Below, in pieces: positions 2,143 through 30,182 of a DNA stretch of 34,096 bases. Below the pieces are notes generated by a model. That model was not told where the DNA came from. It ran no database searches and was given only the letters and a program-made list of their open reading frames with translations. Position numbers and translations under genes: made by a program. Source of the DNA: Bacteroidota bacterium (lineage in GTDB: Bacteria > Bacteroidota > Bacteroidia > UKL13-3); the NCBI GenBank assembly GCA_947477885.1, contig CANJUD010000018.1:1-34096 (forward strand), read 5' to 3'. Each line of letters opens with the position of its first letter. Position 1 is the stretch's first letter.

Positions 2143-2739
2143 ATGGAATTTAACTTCGACAATAAATACATCCTTGAAAACGATAGAGTTATTTTAAGAC
2201 CTCTAGAATACTCAGATTTTGATAATTTAATTTCATTCTCTACAGCAGAACCTGAAATTTGGAAATATTCGTTAATACATGCAGTGGGTGAAAATGGCTT
2301 GAGAGACTATTTAAGCTTAGCAATCGATGCGAGAATAGCTAAGAAAGAGTATCCGTTTATTGTTTTCGATAAAGCGACCAATTCATTTGCAGGCTGCAGC
2401 CGCTTTTACGATATACAACTGGCAAATAAGTGCTTACTATTAGGATATACTTGGTACGGAAAAAAGTTTCAAGGGACCGGAATAAACAAACACTGCAAAT
2501 ATTTGCTCTTGCAGTTTGCATTTGAAGACATTGAAATGGAACGAGTGGAATTTAGAGCTGACTATGAAAACAAGCGAAGTATTTCAGCACTGAAAGGTAT
2601 CGGATGTAAAGAAGAAGGGATACTGAGAAGTAATGCAGTAAAAAATGATGGAAACAGAAGAGATAGTATTGTACTGAGTATTTTAAAACCTGAATGGGAA
2701 ATTACAATACAAAAAGAACTTAAAAGCAAACTAGTTTAA
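2143..2739 (+). CDS. GNAT-family N-acetyltransferase (RimJ/RimL type)
   Basis: This 198-residue protein matches the Acetyltransf_3 (RimJ/RimL-like) pattern. It opens with a strand carrying NDRVILRPLEYSDFDNL, has a central FAGCSRFYDI strand, then the GYTWYGKKFQGTGINKHCK segment, which stands in for the acetyl-CoA-binding loop (usual form Q/RxxGxG/A; here FQGTGIN). Next comes a helix and the VEFRADYENKRSISALKGIGCKEEG segment, where N563-type Asn and the ALxKxGF-like motif close the fold. These enzymes transfer acetyl from acetyl-CoA to amines, often on ribosomal proteins, antibiotics or small metabolites; the substrate here cannot be told. It is the third single-gene unit of the cassette-like row and directly precedes the oxidative operon, but is separated from it by a 227-bp gap with its own promoter. 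Confidence 0.85.
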   Translation: MEFNFDNKYILENDRVILRPLEYSDFDNLISFSTAEPEIWKYSLIHAVGENGLRDYLSLAIDARIAKKEYPFIVFDKATNSFAGCSRFYDIQLANKCLLLGYTWYGKKFQGTGINKHCKYLLLQFAFEDIEMERVEFRADYENKRSISALKGIGCKEEGILRSNAVKNDGNRRDSIVLSILKPEWEITIQKELKSKLV

Positions 2740-2917: not shown

Positions 2918-2925
2918 TAATTTTG
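2918..2925 (+). promoter_or_regulatory. Bacteroidota -7 box for the operon
   Basis: TAATTTTG is an exact match to the TAnnTTTG -7 consensus of the Bacteroidota primary sigma factor. Transcription would begin near 2931, giving a leader of about 35 nt before the first gene. The expected upstream TTG is not present at the usual distance, so the promoter may be weak or activator-dependent. Confidence 0.45.
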
Positions 2926-2966: not shown

Positions 2967-3704
2967 ATGCAAAAGTTTGTTTCAGAAGCGCTGCAACACA
3001 GAGCTGTTCAGCACCCCTATTTAAAAGCCCTTGCCAATGGAGAATTCTCAGACATGGAAGCAGTATTGAAGGATTTTGCCTCTCAATATGGATTCTACAG
3101 CTCTTGGTTTCCTCGTTACCTAACAGCAGTAATCTCCAAACTTGAAAACCCTGAGTACAGGAATCATTTATTGGACAATCTATCCGAAGAGAGCGGTCAC
3201 CTTCATGAGGAAGACATGGTTGCTGTTCGCGCACTCGGAATTAAAGATGAGTGGGTTCAGGGAATTCCTCACCCAGTTCTATTCAAGCGATTCCAGGCTT
3301 CCATGGGCGTAAATCCTAATGCAAATCCGGGGATAGAAGTTGATTTATGGAGAGATTCATTTCTGTCTTTGATTCAAAATGGCAGCGCCGAAAGTGCTGT
3401 TGGTGCCATAGGTTTAGGCACTGAATCTATCGTGAAGTTTATCTATAAAGATTTAATAAAGGCCATACAAGATCATACCCAATTGTCAATGGAAGACTAT
3501 GTGTTCTTTCCATTACATACTGAAGTTGATGATGAGCATGGACTCATACTACTGGATATAGCAGAAAAAATGGCGTCAAGCGGCCCCGAAGCAGAATTAG
3601 AACTTAGGAAAGGTATGAGAAAGGCCTTGAATTTACGGGCTGCTTATTGGGATGAAATGTACGACAGGGCCATGGCTATATGTAAAAAAGAAGTCTTGGC
3701 ATGA
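2967..3704 (+). CDS. Heme-oxygenase-like di-iron oxidase (HDO)
   Basis: The 245-residue protein is all-helical and carries the ligand pattern of the heme-oxygenase-like di-iron oxidase/oxygenase superfamily (UndA, BesC, SznF, CADD). I see E75xxH78 in a NLSEESGHLHEED segment, E153 in a helix, and H184xxxD188xxH191 near the end. The spacing of the last three equals that of UndA. Such enzymes bind two irons, activate O2 and perform N-oxygenation, desaturation or C-C cleavage on small amines or acids in the cytoplasm. It is the first gene of a tight operon, and its stop overlaps the start of the cupin gene by 4 bp (ATGA), implying translational coupling. The order HDO then cupin echoes the two catalytic domains of SznF. 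PqqC/TenA homologues share the fold but lack these metal ligands. The family is well supported; the substrate is not known. Confidence 0.88.
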   Translation: MQKFVSEALQHRAVQHPYLKALANGEFSDMEAVLKDFASQYGFYSSWFPRYLTAVISKLENPEYRNHLLDNLSEESGHLHEEDMVAVRALGIKDEWVQGIPHPVLFKRFQASMGVNPNANPGIEVDLWRDSFLSLIQNGSAESAVGAIGLGTESIVKFIYKDLIKAIQDHTQLSMEDYVFFPLHTEVDDEHGLILLDIAEKMASSGPEAELELRKGMRKALNLRAAYWDEMYDRAMAICKKEVLA

Positions 3705-4462
3705 CGCAACTATTTGTAAAAACTGTAAAGGCAAAACGAATTGGAATTGAAGAGAAGGAGTTTCTTGAGCAATCATTGAAACTCCTTTCAACAGCGCTGC
3801 AAAGTAATCAAATTCCCAATGCACTTAATATCACCAGCACTACCAGTGCCCTTTTTGTATTTGCGATGGGTTCGGAAAGTCAAAAAAAAGAGGTCCTGAA
3901 TTTTGTAGAATGGTTCAGTAATCCGGACTTAGAAATCAATTGGTCTGAAGGTTTGCTTTCTATCGTATCTAAATTTTTCGGCGAATTACAGATTGAGAGA
4001 CTGAGTGATTTGCTTAAAAAAATAAGTCTTCAGAAATCACTAGTGGATGTAGCTGATGCGCGTGAATTGGTGTCAAGCCTGCAGGACGTAAATCTGAATA
4101 GTTTATACCATAACAAAGTAGAAGCGCTAAATATTGATTTTAGTGTCTCAATTCTCCCATTTAAAATGGAGGTACTCGACCCAAGGATTGTTACGGTGCA
4201 ACCCGGCAAGGCAAATGAGATGCATAAGCATGCTCACGAAACGGTTTTCATATTCTTGAAAGGCAAAGGTAAGGTTATTGTAGATGCGCATGAGAATGAA
4301 GTTGGTCCTGGAGATTTTGCCCTCATCCCCAGATGGTGCAACCACCAATCGGTAAATACGGGAGAAGATGAACTCGTGTTTTTAGCGGTTGCTGATTTTG
4401 GCTTAACCGGAAAATCTTTTGTTGGGAATTACATGAAGACTGCTAGAATGAAGACTCTATAA
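3701..4462 (+). CDS. Cupin protein with N-terminal helical domain
   Basis: This 253-residue protein has two parts. Residues 1 to about 140 are predicted mostly helical and I do not recognise them. Residues about 155-240 form a single cupin barrel: motif 1 supplies H175, H177 (or H179) and E180 within PGKANEMHKHAHE; motif 2 is GDFALIPRWCNHQSVN with H215. The complete 3-His/1-Glu set predicts a mononuclear metal, probably Fe(II). In SznF the C-terminal cupin rearranges the hydroxylated guanidine made by the di-iron domain into an N-nitrosourea. Here a comparable cupin is encoded separately but overlaps the HDO gene by 4 bp. By inference it may act on the HDO product; a plain isomerase, dioxygenase or stabilising partner role is equally possible. 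The N-terminal part may be an interaction domain. Confidence 0.82.
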   Translation: MTQLFVKTVKAKRIGIEEKEFLEQSLKLLSTALQSNQIPNALNITSTTSALFVFAMGSESQKKEVLNFVEWFSNPDLEINWSEGLLSIVSKFFGELQIERLSDLLKKISLQKSLVDVADARELVSSLQDVNLNSLYHNKVEALNIDFSVSILPFKMEVLDPRIVTVQPGKANEMHKHAHETVFIFLKGKGKVIVDAHENEVGPGDFALIPRWCNHQSVNTGEDELVFLAVADFGLTGKSFVGNYMKTARMKTL

Positions 4463-4489
4463 CTATTGCACCCTTTACCTCACCAATTC

Positions 4490-5539
4490 ATGAATGCAGG
4501 ATTTCTTCGAAAAGGTTACCATATGCTTAGGGTTTGTGAAATCAAACAACTCACGGATGATGCGGTGAACATTGTTTTTAATGTACCTGAGAAACTTAAA
4601 GAATTATTCAACTACAAACCAGGCCAGCACGTTGATATTATAATCAATTGTGAGGGTGAAGAATTAGGTCGTTCCTACTCTATTTGCAGTGGACCGGGTG
4701 AACCTTTGTCAATTGGGGTAAAAACTGTTCTTAATGGCCGGGTGTCCCATTGGTTGAACATGAGCCTAAAAGAAGGGGATCAAATTGCCGTTTCGGAACC
4801 CCGGGGCTCCTTTGTGCTGAGCACGGAGGCAAACAATATTGTGCTAATTGGAGCTGGCAGCGGCATAACGCCATTACTATCGATGTATAAAAGTGGAATC
4901 AGCTCAGCTATTCAAGTCACTTTGATTTATGGAAATTCAAAGTCATCATCAATTATGTTCTCGGAGGAAATCAATAATATTAAGGGGGGCCGCGTAATTA
5001 AATACCTGAGCAGAGAAGAAAAAGAGGGCTTTATAAGTGGGAGAATAAACAGTGACAACCTATCTGCGTTGGTGCAGAAAGAGCCTAACTTGCTGAACGC
5101 GGATGCTTATTATCTTTGCGGTCCCGAGGAAATGATTGCCAGTGCTCGCTCTTTCCTTCAAAACGCGAAGGTTTCAGCAGACAAAATATTTTTCGAGTTG
5201 TTTACAGCTCCCGTTAAAAAAGTAGAGTCCCAACCCAACTTAAATACCCGATACACTGGTAAATGTCATTTGAAGATCAATCTTGAAGGAGACAAATACC
5301 AGTTAGAAGTGGAGACCGAGAGTACATCTATACTGGACGTGGCCTTAAAAGCAGGAATTGATGCGCCATACTCCTGCAAAGCAGGGGTGTGCGGCTCTTG
5401 CAGGGCAAAGGTGCTGGAGGGGCATGCCATTATTAAAAACAACTACGCACTAACTCAACAAGAACTAGATGACGGCTACGTTCTGACCTGTCAGGCCCTA
5501 CCCTCTGCGGAAATGCTGTATTTATCATATGATGATTAG
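4490..5539 (+). CDS. PaaE-like NAD(P)H:ferredoxin oxidoreductase
   Basis: This is a three-domain electron-transfer protein. Numbered from the ATG at 4490 (349 residues) it has an FAD-binding barrel with RSYS at 61-64, an NAD(P)-binding domain with GAGSGITP at 121-128 and CGP at 210-212, and a C-terminal plant-type 2Fe-2S domain with Cys296, 301, 304 and 334 (Cx4CxxC...C). The layout equals PaaE, HmpX and other reductases that feed electrons from NAD(P)H to di-iron or Rieske oxygenases. In this operon it is the obvious electron donor for the di-iron oxidase, though this is inferred from position. The frame stays open back to a TTG at 4466, 3 bp after the cupin stop, which would add eight residues; I prefer the ATG. 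The ATG at 4523 is another possibility. Confidence 0.9.
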   Translation: MNAGFLRKGYHMLRVCEIKQLTDDAVNIVFNVPEKLKELFNYKPGQHVDIIINCEGEELGRSYSICSGPGEPLSIGVKTVLNGRVSHWLNMSLKEGDQIAVSEPRGSFVLSTEANNIVLIGAGSGITPLLSMYKSGISSAIQVTLIYGNSKSSSIMFSEEINNIKGGRVIKYLSREEKEGFISGRINSDNLSALVQKEPNLLNADAYYLCGPEEMIASARSFLQNAKVSADKIFFELFTAPVKKVESQPNLNTRYTGKCHLKINLEGDKYQLEVETESTSILDVALKAGIDAPYSCKAGVCGSCRAKVLEGHAIIKNNYALTQQELDDGYVLTCQALPSAEMLYLSYDD

Positions 5540-5620
5540 CACTTGTACAAATGGAAACCGACTAATAGCTCAGATTAATAACTGAAATCAAGAGTCATAA
5601 CTAACACAACTAAATTATAA

Positions 5621-6379
5621 ATGGATACAAAAGATCTATACAATTCACAGGCAAGTGCCTGGACTAGAAACGAACCAGTTCTCCTTTCAGACTATTCAGC
5701 CCGCCCATTTGTTATCAATCTATGTGAGCCTGCAGCAGGTAAGCGTATTCTTGACATTGGCTGTGGTGAGGGATATGTGGGTAGAAAAATTGCAATGGCG
5801 GGCGCTGAGCACGTGCATGGTATTGATATATCTGATAAGATGATTGAGGCGGCGTTGGCCAATCAAGTTAGTAGCGGAATAGAAAATTTGAGCTATGAGG
5901 TTCAAGACATGAGAAATGCAGAACTGAGCGATATAGAGCCCTATGATCTTGTTTTAGGAATGTTTCTATTCAACTACCTTAGTGTGGAAGACACCCACCT
6001 TGTGATGAAAAAAGCATTTGATGTGATCAAACCTGGAGGCCATTTTATATTTTCTGTGCCTCATCCATTTTTAGCATTTTTGAAAAAAGAAAAATACCCA
6101 TTTTATTTCGAAGCTACTAATGGTTATTTCTCTGGACGAAATATTCTTTTTCCAGGGGAAATTTGGCGAAGAGATGGTGTCGCCGTTAATGTGCAATGTA
6201 TTCACAAAACATTTGAAGATTACTTCAAAGGGCTAGTAGATAGTGGATTTACGACTATGCCCGAGGTATATGAGCTGAGAATAACAGAAGAGCAGCTTAA
6301 GCTTGATTCTGCGTTTTTTGGCCCCCTCATGGACTACCCCCTTCATGTCGCTTTTAAAGTGAGAAAGCAAGACCAATGA
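5621..6379 (+). CDS. Class I SAM-dependent methyltransferase
   Basis: The 252-residue protein has a Rossmann-type methyltransferase domain with motif I ILDIGCGEG at 43-51, an acidic residue ending strand 2 (GIDIS, D69), motif II-like QDM near 96, then the PYDLVLGMFLFNYL strand and a VIKPGGHFIFSVPHP post-motif. The remaining 90 residues form a substrate cap. It resembles the Methyltransf_11/25 group that methylates small molecules at O, N or C. The substrate cannot be read from the sequence. It follows the reductase gene after an 81-bp gap and overlaps the dioxygenase start by 4 bp (ATGA). In the streptozotocin pathway a methyltransferase (SznE) methylates arginine before SznF acts; an analogous first step is possible but unproven here. 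Confidence 0.88.
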   Translation: MDTKDLYNSQASAWTRNEPVLLSDYSARPFVINLCEPAAGKRILDIGCGEGYVGRKIAMAGAEHVHGIDISDKMIEAALANQVSSGIENLSYEVQDMRNAELSDIEPYDLVLGMFLFNYLSVEDTHLVMKKAFDVIKPGGHFIFSVPHPFLAFLKKEKYPFYFEATNGYFSGRNILFPGEIWRRDGVAVNVQCIHKTFEDYFKGLVDSGFTTMPEVYELRITEEQLKLDSAFFGPLMDYPLHVAFKVRKQDQ

Positions 6380-7293
6380 TAACCAGTAAACTCTCCACTA
6401 TAGTGTGGGAAAATCTTCCTAAATCTGATCAATACACCTTCAACTTACATGATGACTTTTCAAACATTATAGGCAACTTTAAAGCTGATCAAAAAAAAAT
6501 ACTTATCGAAAACCCCAATGAATTCCTGAGCATGGACTCATATGATTGGCTTGATGAGTTGCATCTAAAATTAAAGGCGGCACCTGGTTTTGTGCTTATC
6601 AAATCAGGGGCATTATTTAGCAATGAAGAATTAAGGTACATTTATGCATTTTGCTGCCGGCGCCTTGGCTTGTTGAACAACCGATATGGCTACTTCTTCG
6701 ATGTGGTTGACCAAGGCCTCGATTACACGAAGCAAGCCATTCCAGTATCTAAGACCCGCGCAAGCACAGGCTACCATACAGACAGCACCGCAAAAGAATA
6801 TTTGCCCGACGTAGTTGGCCTTTTATGTCTTTCACCCGGAGCAATAGGTGGAGATTCTCTTCTAACGAATGCCGCAAACCTTTATAAACACTTACTTCAG
6901 AATTATTCGTATACACTTGAAGCAATGCAGGCTCCAATCATTAGAGACGTGATAACACCAGGCACCGAGAACTCGGTTGAGGCAATAATGCAGAATGCCT
7001 TTCCCATTTTTTCTTTTCCTAATGAAGGATTTACATTCAGATACATGCGCTATTGGATAGAGTCAGCATACGAGAAAACAGGGCAAAATATATCTAAAGA
7101 ACTAATGAAAGGCATCGAAGAAACTGATTGCTACTTCTCAAGCCCTCAAAATTATCTGCAATTTAAACTGGAAAGAGGTGACATGCTCTTGTTGAATAAT
7201 CGATTTATATGTCATAATAGGACTGCTTTTGAAAATAACGCCTTAGGGAGCACACCCAGAACACTTGTAAGGTCCTGGATTAATTTCCAATAG
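6376..7293 (+). CDS. TauD/TfdA-type Fe(II)/2OG dioxygenase
   Basis: The 305-residue protein shows the full facial triad of a 2-oxoglutarate-dependent oxygenase: H134xD136 in TGYHTDSTAKEYLPD, a distal H280 in LLLNNRFICHNR, and a 2OG-anchoring arginine near the end (R295 or R299). The segment PDVVGLLCLSPGAIGGDS after the HxD is typical of the TauD/TfdA and clavaminate-synthase-like group. Such enzymes hydroxylate, desaturate or halogenate small substrates, several of them free amino acids; the Asp in HxD argues against a halogenase. It is the last gene of the operon, with its start overlapping the methyltransferase stop. It may prepare the amino-acid substrate or tailor the product of the di-iron/cupin pair. 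Fold and cofactor are well supported; substrate unknown. Confidence 0.9.
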   Translation: MITSKLSTIVWENLPKSDQYTFNLHDDFSNIIGNFKADQKKILIENPNEFLSMDSYDWLDELHLKLKAAPGFVLIKSGALFSNEELRYIYAFCCRRLGLLNNRYGYFFDVVDQGLDYTKQAIPVSKTRASTGYHTDSTAKEYLPDVVGLLCLSPGAIGGDSLLTNAANLYKHLLQNYSYTLEAMQAPIIRDVITPGTENSVEAIMQNAFPIFSFPNEGFTFRYMRYWIESAYEKTGQNISKELMKGIEETDCYFSSPQNYLQFKLERGDMLLLNNRFICHNRTAFENNALGSTPRTLVRSWINFQ

Positions 7294-8619: not shown

Positions 8620-10008
8620 TTAAATATTTACACAATCTCCCCTATTTGGGATAAAAATATCCGAAACGCCATTCTTTTTTAACAAAACGCTCAATTCATT
8701 CATATTTCCTTCATCCCCATGAACCAAGCAGGTTTTGCGTGTTTTTGTGTTGTTTTCTGAAATGGCAAAACAAAGTCCATTTGCATCGGCATGAGAACTA
8801 AAAGCATCAGTGCTAGCAATACGGGCGTACACTGCCATTGGGCGACCTTTCACGGTAATTGTTTGTCTGCCTTGTAGCAAATCATGTCCTAAAGTTCCAG
8901 GAGAACAAAAGCCAGCAATCAATATAGTTGCATAATTATTGGAAATGTGATTGGCTATATGTGTCTGTATTCGCCCGCCCTCTACCATTCCTGCTGCGGA
9001 AACAATAACACAGGGTTCGAAATAATTATCAAGTAGAAAATTATCTGATTGGTCTTCTATAAGTTGAAGATTCGGGAAATTGAATAAATCATTAAAGCTA
9101 TGAGCAAACTCAGCAGTTTCGGCATTCAAATCGTTGCGGTAACTACTATAAATATTTGTACTTTTAATAGCTAATGGACTATCCACAAATACTTTCACAT
9201 CGGGCAACAAACCTTTTCTGGCCAGTTTATTAAGAGTGTAAACGATGGATTGGGTTCTACCAACTGAGAAAGCGGGTATAATAAGTTTACCTCTTTGTGT
9301 AACACAGGTACTCGTTACAAATTCTAACAATTCGGCTTCTGGGTCTATGTTTGGCCTATGGAGGCGGCCACCATAAGTGCTTTCACTAATTAATACATCA
9401 CATTCAGGAAGTGATTCTGGGTCTTTTAATAAGGGAGCATTTGCCCGGCCCCAATCACCAGTGAAAACCAAGGATTTTTCTTTCCCACCCTCATTAATTT
9501 TTAATTGAACGAATGCCGCTCCCAATAAATGTCCAGCTATTCCAAAAGTTAAAGTTACTCCGGGTGCAATTGCATATGGTTTATGGAAGGGCACTGTTTT
9601 AAACTGAGCGACAGTTTGTTTTACATTCTTTTCGGTATAAAGCGGTTTAGGAGTCTGTATTTTTTTACGACGGTTTTTACGGTAATCATGATCTTGAATA
9701 CGGGCACTGTCCAATAACAAATGGTAAGAAAGCTCAGATGTAGCTGGTGTGCAAATAATCCTACCTCCGAATCCTTGCCTTACTAAATTGGGCAAATTGC
9801 CGCTGTGGTCGATATGTGCATGGCTTAAAATAACTACATCAATACTAGCAGGGTCAAACGGAAATGAGTTAGGTGGGCTATAATGAAAATTCTTTTTTTG
9901 CTCGTAATCAAGACCGCAATCGAGCAGAATTTTATAGCCATTATCTAAGGTGAGAAGATGCATGCTGCCTGTTACTTGGCGAGCTGCACCACAAAAAGTT
10001 ATTTGCAT
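8620..10008 (-). CDS. MBL-fold beta-CASP RNA-processing exonuclease
   Basis: This 462-residue protein joins a metallo-beta-lactamase domain to a beta-CASP domain, as in CPSF73/Ysh1-like and TTHA0252-type ribonucleases. It starts MQITFCGAARQVTGS, shows the zinc motif H63xH65xD67H68 within LSHAHIDHSGNLP, then GHLLGAAFV and FTGDWGR. The beta-CASP part has PAFSVGRTQ and the three late motifs, including SAAGMVEGGRI and SSHADANGL, and ends with the VHGDEGNM segment and a short tail. Two Zn(II) ions are expected, with endo- or 5'-3' exonuclease action on RNA in the cytoplasm. Length matches the family. The gene stands alone in a run of minus-strand genes. Confidence 0.9.
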   Translation of the reverse strand: MQITFCGAARQVTGSMHLLTLDNGYKILLDCGLDYEQKKNFHYSPPNSFPFDPASIDVVILSHAHIDHSGNLPNLVRQGFGGRIICTPATSELSYHLLLDSARIQDHDYRKNRRKKIQTPKPLYTEKNVKQTVAQFKTVPFHKPYAIAPGVTLTFGIAGHLLGAAFVQLKINEGGKEKSLVFTGDWGRANAPLLKDPESLPECDVLISESTYGGRLHRPNIDPEAELLEFVTSTCVTQRGKLIIPAFSVGRTQSIVYTLNKLARKGLLPDVKVFVDSPLAIKSTNIYSSYRNDLNAETAEFAHSFNDLFNFPNLQLIEDQSDNFLLDNYFEPCVIVSAAGMVEGGRIQTHIANHISNNYATILIAGFCSPGTLGHDLLQGRQTITVKGRPMAVYARIASTDAFSSHADANGLCFAISENNTKTRKTCLVHGDEGNMNELSVLLKKNGVSDIFIPNRGDCVNI

Positions 10009-29666: not shown

Positions 29667-30182
29667 ATGGAAAAAGGTATGGAATTCTATACAGCAACTT
29701 GTCTCAATTGGCAACCTCTTTTAGATGATGACACTTCCAAAAACATTATAATGGATAGTCTGAAGTTTTTGGTAGAAGATAAAAGAATTTGGCTTTATGG
29801 ATTTGTTGTCATGCCCAATCATATACATTTGTTATGGAGCAAACAAGAAGCATATATTGCAAAGAATGTTCAGAGGAGATTCATGACATATACTGCACAA
29901 CAACTCAAGTTTAAATTGCTTGATGCAAATTCAACGCAACTTGGCAATTATAAAAGTACCCAAGAAGACAGAGAATATCAGTTTTGGGAACGCAGACCTT
30001 ATAAAGCAACAATGTATAATAGAAGTGCTGCAGAACAGAAATTGGAGTATATACATCAGAATCCCGTGAAAGCAGGTTTATGTAAAAATGCTGAAGATTA
30101 TGAGTTTTCTTCTGCTAGGTATTATAAGTTAAATGAAGAAAAACGGTGGAATTTTTTAACGCATTATATGGAACATATATAG
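29667..30182 (+). CDS. REP-associated tyrosine transposase (RAYT, Y1/HUH)
   Basis: The 171-residue protein is an IS200/IS605-type HUH transposase of the RAYT subgroup. The HUH motif is H52xH54 in GFVVMPNHIHLLW, and the catalytic tyrosine is Y128 in KLEYIHQNPVKAGL, the typical RAYT signature; FSSARYY closes the domain. RAYTs nick and move REP single-stranded DNA. It lies 49 bp after the last of three matching REP-like hairpins, which are its presumed substrates. The ATG at 29679 is an alternative start, suggested by the -7 box. No companion TnpB is seen and the protein is complete, so it may still be active. Confidence 0.92.
   Translation: MEKGMEFYTATCLNWQPLLDDDTSKNIIMDSLKFLVEDKRIWLYGFVVMPNHIHLLWSKQEAYIAKNVQRRFMTYTAQQLKFKLLDANSTQLGNYKSTQEDREYQFWERRPYKATMYNRSAAEQKLEYIHQNPVKAGLCKNAEDYEFSSARYYKLNEEKRWNFLTHYMEHI

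Follow-up and report, generated by a model that had tools for sequence, protein, structure and literature searches.

A modular set of diiron oxygenase, cupin, methyltransferase and 2-oxoglutarate oxygenase genes shared across aquatic bacterial phyla and its probable role in small-molecule synthesis

Introduction

Haem-oxygenase-like diiron oxidases/oxygenases (HDOs) comprise more than ten thousand sequences, and reactions are known for about a dozen of them (PMC13108848). Here we describe an operon that encodes an HDO, a cupin, a PaaE-like reductase, an S-adenosylmethionine (SAM) methyltransferase (MT) and a TauD-type Fe/2-oxoglutarate (2OG) oxygenase, and that lies in a 34,096-bp stretch of a Bacteroidota genome (contig CANJUD010000018.1; hereafter the window). 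Among the described systems that resemble it, the streptozotocin N-nitrosourea synthase SznF/StzF and its homologues GrbD and ChmM likewise carry HDO and mononuclear three-histidine (3-His) cupin modules, with an SAM methyltransferase in the pathway, and the substrate of SznF is N-omega-methylarginine (PMC13108848, PMC11705231). The two modules are fused in SznF, whereas they are encoded by separate genes here and accompanied by TauD and the reductase. In the ham cluster for fragin and valdiazen, the HDO HamA and the cupin HamB are stand-alone products of adjacent genes, as in our locus, but the cluster contains further genes, for an AurF-type N-oxygenase, a nonribosomal peptide synthetase (NRPS) and a polyketide-cyclase-like protein (PMC11659414); these three are missing here, and the MT-TauD pair has not been reported from it. 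MboA, a desaturating HDO of mangotoxin synthesis, needs the dedicated NAD(P)H/flavin/Fe2S2 reductase MboB encoded next to it (PMC13185094), and an HDO with such a reductase is found here too; the mangotoxin system, which has a peptide substrate, employs two ATP-grasp ligases and lacks cupin, methyltransferase and TauD, is otherwise unlike this operon.

The single HDO enzymes HrmI/BelK, RohS, FlcD and BesC share the fold and the three-histidine/three-carboxylate (3H/3C) metal site of the present HDO at ~13-20% identity. To our knowledge, their pathways lack the present gene combination. The 4-aminobenzoate (pABA) synthases CADD and NePabS are the best sequence match of the HDO and have identical metal ligands, but the Tyr27 and Lys152 that CtCADD consumes from its own chain (PMC13108848) are lacking here. 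PaaE has the domain order of the operon reductase, but the operon copy scores under the PaaE cut-off and its gene is linked in four genomes to HDO-cupin genes instead of paaABCD. An earlier note on this DNA, written from the letters alone, knew of no cluster described with exactly these genes, and our literature search, which covered papers readable without subscription, found none either. All the enzyme families are known; the novelty lies in how they are combined, in a logic that needs no carrier and in the modular distribution. We conclude that the five genes very probably make a small molecule, matching no pathway that we found described.

Results

The host assembly is 3.1 Mb in size and 99.9% complete, and the window is part of its contig 18. 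The five genes are arranged on the forward strand in the order HDO (2967-3704, 245 amino acids; Pfam Haem_oxygenas_2), cupin (3701-4462, 253 amino acids; Cupin_2), PaaE-like NAD(P)H/FAD/2Fe-2S reductase (4466-5539; FAD_binding_6, NAD_binding_1 and Fer2), class I SAM methyltransferase (5621-6379, 252 amino acids; Methyltransf_31/25/11) and TauD-type oxygenase (6376-7293, 305 amino acids; TauD, 76.4 bits against a cut-off of 27), and all five proteins scored above the cut-offs of their Pfam families. The reductase open reading frame (ORF) was called from a TTG at 4466, but translation more likely begins at the in-frame ATG at 4490, which fits the relatives better. HDO and cupin overlap by 4 bp in an ATGA at 3701, as do MT and TauD at 6376, and an 81-bp gap separates reductase and MT. 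Because the same 4-bp overlaps recur in relatives (for example L012, L013, L015, L030, L032-L035 and L081; L numbers denote loci and G numbers genomes), they go beyond chance. The ORF calls and the reading of the junctions bore out the genes, places and two overlaps given in the earlier note, and Pfam and NCBIfam returned the same enzyme families; two points need amending, as the note's coordinates omit a GNAT acetyltransferase gene upstream (2143-2739, forward strand; Acetyltransf_3), which ends 227 bp before the HDO, and reductase and MT stand 81 bp apart. As the note had also claimed, no NRPS, carrier protein, ligase or transporter gene is present in the operon. No ATP-grasp amino-acid ligase was seen among its ORFs and Pfam matches, and neither an NRPS nor an AurF-type N-oxygenase was found in the window or recurrently beside related loci. 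The G+C content of the operon is 0.40-0.43 against 0.32-0.37 in the flanks, and the HDO was found in 0 of 34 close relatives (2 genomes of the same genus and 32 of the same family); by these sequence features the operon was likely gained horizontally.

To survey related loci, the HDO alignment was scanned against one genome per species. The same HDO was present at 28 loci, in Bacteroidota, a Curvibacter, Planctomycetota, Verrucomicrobiota, Kiritimatiellota and Gemmatimonadota (six phyla), and its bearers are lake and ocean bacteria. Three architectures were recognized. HDO and cupin stand together at 15 loci (the window, L011-L015, L017, L018, L020-L025 and L027), all in Bacteroidota save L025, which comes from a Curvibacter metagenome-assembled genome (MAG); at L016 the locus is cut by the contig end, and the cupin gene opens another contig of the same genome. 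HDO, MT and TauD without cupin were found at nine loci (L029-L037, with L037 cut before TauD) in Flavobacteriales, Planctomycetota, Verrucomicrobiota, Kiritimatiellota and Gemmatimonadota. The third architecture, the full five-gene set, occurs in the window and at L013, in another Bacteroidota genome, there in the order HDO-cupin-MT-TauD-reductase and with a GNAT gene as well. At L026 the HDO gene is divergent from MT-TauD, and a plasmid of Indioceanicola profundi (L005) carries HDO-MT.

When presence was scored by genome, the cupin was found in 17 of the 19 genomes of HDO-cupin type and in 0/9 of HDO-MT-TauD type. Eight of the 19 HDO-cupin-type genomes carry MT and TauD jointly and the others neither; the two genes are always adjacent, and in five of these eight genomes the pair lies on another contig than the HDO. 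A TauD orthologue was present in 7/18 other HDO-bearing genomes against 0/394 sampled Bacteroidota (Fisher p ~8e-11, only a guide because related genomes are not independent); the background sample held 395 Bacteroidota genomes, in which the window's own genome was the sole carrier. The MT and TauD trees agree on the group ((window, G460), L013), starred for support in each, and on a deep split that sets off the planctomycete-verrucomicrobial set, whereas the HDO tree placed the window with L014, L011, L013 and L012 and the HDO of G460 elsewhere, so the histories of the MT-TauD and HDO-cupin pairs are partly separate. HDO-cupin and MT-TauD are separable modules of one exchangeable set. The search for co-conserved neighbourhoods that the earlier note had proposed thus found the genes co-conserved across the 28 loci, which supports one pathway of co-conserved genes, and neither of the conditions that the note had named for its refutation, a known cluster or a lack of co-conservation, was borne out; its description of a single five-gene operon stands as to co-conservation and not as to fixedness, as the two pairs come apart and the GNAT gene belongs to the set too.

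Several further matches were set aside. A scan of viral contigs with the HDO found no relative, and a phage or virus origin was rejected on this ground. A plasmid search with the cupin found no relative, the plasmid TauD matches (24-30% identity) are not orthologues, and the listed plasmid MT matches other than that of Indioceanicola (at most ~31% identity) are generic methyltransferases. HDO-like matches in G218, G262 and G360 from the phylum sample are weak, and two of the three group with CADD-like outgroups.

The predicted metal site of the HDO is complete. Its ligands E75, H102, E153, H184, D188 and H191 are conserved in the family (alignments A5 and A9), align one to one with E81, H88, E142, H174, D178 and H181 of CtCADD, and form a full 3H/3C diiron site on the core helices. 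The structure model (predicted local distance difference test score, pLDDT, 93.6) has the seven-helix haem oxygenase-like fold, and Foldseek matched it with probability 1.00 to CADD, BesC, UndA, FlcD and HrmI. With VIA-align, the top group included HrmI, CADD, BesC and FlcD (Z 22-24): the N-oxygenase HrmI gave Z 24.0 over 216 residues at 2.4 A, with CADD and BesC (Z 23.2) tied within 1, and HamA (9vwb; 21.2), PolF (~19) and SznF (16.6) were lower. By sequence, the best matches in the PDB were CADD proteins, and the best other match was BesC (E 3.8e-9). The NCBIfam models scored far below their cut-offs (TIGR04305, 59 bits against 200; BesC, 24.3 bits against 500). At the positions of CtCADD Tyr27 and Lys152 the HDO has the near-invariant L19 and, at a site where family members mostly carry I or L, L163.

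The cupin protein consists of a helical N-terminal part of ~110 amino acids that matches no Pfam family and a C-terminal cupin barrel. Its ligands H175, H177 and H215 are invariant in 14 sequences, and Thr181 replaces the usual Glu ligand, which makes it a 3-His type. The best sequence matches were gentisate-type dioxygenases, which are three-His iron cupins. At all loci that have both, cupin and HDO are separate and often overlapping genes. In VIA-align, the top group of the cupin model (pLDDT 74.7) included the SznF cupin domain with Z 10.3 over 90 residues at 2.0 A, tied with other cupins, and the spacing of H175/H177/H215 is much like that of the SznF ligands H407/H409/H448 (PMC11705231).

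Wherever a Bacteroidota genome carries MT or TauD, the two are paired (alignment A7 and searches). The H134-x-D136...H280 iron triad and the 2OG-binding R295 of TauD are invariant in 11 sequences (alignment A8), so that the metal sites of HDO, cupin and TauD are all intact in sequence, in agreement with the three iron-dependent enzymes counted earlier. The PDB profile search with TauD matched FrbJ and a predicted hydroxylase best, followed by gamma-butyrobetaine dioxygenase and TmpA. In one relative (L009/L029, 5103-6014), TauD lacks ten residues around a conserved GGDSL stretch kept by all others, which may be a deletion, an assembly error or an altered enzyme.

The GNAT gene is the sole recurrent additional neighbour. 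Orthologues lie directly 5' of the HDO at L012, L013, L014 and L015, and convergent ones beside the HDO at L019 and beside the cupin at L087, so that the gene is linked in seven genomes, the window included. Judged from this arrangement, the GNAT protein is a probable sixth member of the system, with a role in self-protection or tailoring.

The reductase matched TIGR02160 (PaaE) best in NCBIfam, at 310.4 bits against a cut-off of 420.8; the model is a hypothetical equivalog on which Bacteroidota sequences may score low. Its domains are ordered as in PaaE, and its cofactor set is that of MboB. Its gene lies within the HDO-cupin gene set at four loci (the window, L011, L013 and L014). In the host genome it is the sole PaaE-type protein, the next match being 25% identical, and a distant locus (L103, contig C1:506000-524000) has paaA, paaB and paaC, with two unrelated ORFs between paaA and paaB, and no paaD or paaE beside them; the reductase may serve both the HDO system and paaABC in this genome. 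A dedicated role is likelier in G449 and G465, because further PaaE copies exist there besides the HDO-cupin-linked reductase. The reductase may thus be the electron donor of the HDO, as the earlier note took it to be, but need not be dedicated to it, given that it adjoins HDO-cupin at four loci only and is the sole PaaE-type protein of a genome with distant paaABC genes. The closest orthologue of the reductase in G450 sits in the paa locus. In G450 and G453 (L085 and L086), two tandem PaaE-like reductase genes and a short-chain dehydrogenase/reductase gene adjoin paaABC; no other sequence at these loci is as close to the operon reductase as the second tandem copy, which suggests where the operon gene originated.

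Discussion

These results are best explained by a modular pathway to a small molecule: the HDO would oxidise a substrate resembling an amino acid, most likely by N-oxygenation, and cupin, MT, TauD and GNAT would act further; we put the probability of this reading at about 0.5. By analogy with known HDO families, we infer that the substrate is a free amino acid or something closely derived from one. The HDO would take O2, and electrons from the NAD(P)H/FAD/2Fe-2S reductase, and would N-oxygenate a side-chain or guanidine-like nitrogen of this substrate. The cupin would rearrange or further oxidise the product, MT would methylate it, TauD would hydroxylate or desaturate, and GNAT would acetylate the product or protect the producer. 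N-oxygenation is favoured on two grounds: N-oxygenases are among the closest folds, and some pathways that form N-N bonds use an HDO together with a cupin partner. N-oxygenation or N-N chemistry like that of a split SznF or of HamA-HamB is plausible by this likeness; rearrangement by a cupin after N-oxygenation occurs in SznF (PMC11705231) and is suspected for HamA-HamB (PMC11659414). A more specific proposal, a carrier-free, split SznF-like system in which HDO and 3-His cupin would install an N-nitroso, diazeniumdiolate or other N-oxidised group on a free amino acid while the exchangeable MT-TauD pair methylates and hydroxylates, is tentative and rather unlikely.

Several observations weigh against N-oxygenation within a shared pathway. 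The fold scores of CADD, BesC, UndA and FlcD are near that of HrmI, and the shared predicted fold cannot separate N-oxygenation from carbon chemistry. Although its folds match, SznF was not among the PDB profile matches of the HDO at E<=1 or of the cupin at E<=0.1, which is recorded as an absence only. No MT-TauD was found in 11/19 HDO-cupin-type genomes; most of these are incomplete MAGs, but G046, which is 99% complete, lacks the pair. The HDO-MT-TauD clade, with no cupin in any of its nine genomes, means that the cupin step is not universal. Moreover, fragin was not abolished when hamB was deleted (PMC11659414), and the presence of an HDO-cupin pair is thus no sure sign that the cupin makes N-N bonds.

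The HDO might instead perform carbon chemistry on an amino acid, desaturating it, forming an alkyne or cleaving a C-C bond, as in BesC, PolF and MboA; cupin and TauD would hydroxylate the unsaturated product or rearrange it, giving a toxic amino-acid analogue that GNAT neutralises. This would suit the position of BesC as best non-CADD sequence match and close fold match, the linked GNAT genes and the PaaE/MboB-type reductase, which has so far been required by the desaturating MboA (PMC13185094). On the other side, the BesC model score is a small fraction of its cut-off, and no ATP-grasp ligase or chlorinase was found nearby. We also know of no role for a cupin in any BesC/MboA-type pathway, and consider carbon chemistry possible but less than probable. 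That the HDO is a self-sacrificing pABA synthase of CADD/PabS type with unrelated neighbours is scarcely credible: CADD proteins lead its PDB sequence matches, but the score on TIGR04305 is low, pABA synthesis offers no role for the cupin, MT and TauD that are conserved along with it, and L19 and L163 stand in place of the sacrificial Tyr27 and Lys152, because of which we rejected CADD-type synthesis.

With regard to the reductase, it is doubtful, though well short of far-fetched, that it serves a PaaABC epoxidase and stands in the operon by chance, with the HDO drawing electrons from a different donor or from no particular one. The incomplete paaABC locus on contig C1, the lack of a second PaaE-type protein and the G450 orthologue inside a paa locus speak for this, but the gene accompanies HDO-cupin genes in three further genomes, is extra to other PaaE copies in G449 and G465, and has a product that does not reach the equivalog cut-off for PaaE. 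An operon for catabolism or detoxification, serving to degrade a methylated or N-oxidised compound, would agree with the relatedness of TauD to gamma-butyrobetaine dioxygenase and the 2-trimethylaminoethylphosphonate hydroxylase TmpA, with the frequent ring-cleaving activity of cupins and with the lack of an export gene; SAM methylation, however, costs energy and is unusual in catabolism, genes for transporters, dehydrogenases or CoA entry are not regular companions, and no substrate-linked neighbour recurs, which leaves this explanation improbable. Chance gathering by horizontal transfer without a common pathway could draw on the raised G+C content and the absence of the HDO from the 34 close relatives, but can be given almost no weight in view of the repeated adjacency and 4-bp overlaps across phyla, the second five-gene operon and the joint presence of MT and TauD where they are unlinked, and the co-occurrence statistics contradict it. 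Anti-phage defence was likewise rejected, as PADLOC gave just a methyltransferase-domain match to mad2.

The system offers an HDO whose partners are set by co-conservation, and its five to six genes, with no megasynthase, are few enough for rebuilding in vitro. Its modular distribution (HDO-cupin, HDO-MT-TauD and all five genes) amounts to a natural experiment on which enzymes cooperate. It would also imply a specialised metabolite, overlooked so far, of uncultured freshwater Bacteroidota and of marine Planctomycetota, Verrucomicrobiota and Gemmatimonadota. If the split SznF-like proposal is true, its products, small and reactive amino acids or signals, would form a family extending across aquatic phyla, and standard cluster finders may overlook such systems.

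Additional features of the window and related loci

In the upstream region of the HDO, a motif scan found the candidate -7 element TAATTTTG (2918-2925, forward strand), 41 bp 5' of the HDO ATG, which fits the TAnnTTTG Bacteroidota consensus only; no clear -33 element was found with it.

No hint of a substrate recurred in the flanks of L013, L020, L025 or the HDO-MT-TauD loci. Oligopeptide-permease-like genes common to L023, L024 and L026 apparently reflect shared synteny of related genomes and were set aside. In the Curvibacter MAG (L025), a gene for a LuxR-type autoinducer-binding regulator (8858-9733) lies ~260 bp 5' of HDO-cupin on the same strand, with RhlR and LasR as best PDB matches of its product, and an AraC-type gene lies downstream. 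A search of this MAG found no LuxI, and the search control gave no match either. The regulator hints that the Curvibacter product or its timing may be tied to signalling.

On the Indioceanicola plasmid (L005), HDO-MT adjoins flagellar hook-protein and glycosyltransferase genes; farther on are ATP-grasp-like and 2OG-oxygenase-like genes, assigned by eye with no Pfam match, then a TylF-type methyltransferase gene, and a DegT aminotransferase gene on the other strand. The 38 kb plasmids of Pantoea agglomerans (L006, L099 and L100) encode a distantly related HDO (28% identity), which is either joined in one chain with an EctB-like aminotransferase or next to it, in a cluster that also has ThiF, TauD, GNAT, CapA, ATP-grasp, PurD-like, MFS and amidase genes and resembles a small peptide-antibiotic cluster.

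Elsewhere in the window, an Rfam DUF805 RNA (RF03081, 68.4 bits) was found at 603-672, directly 5' of a small ORF (686-1168) that matches no Pfam family and does not encode a DUF805 protein. The ORF at 29667-30182 resembles, by eye only, a REP-associated (IS200-like) transposase.

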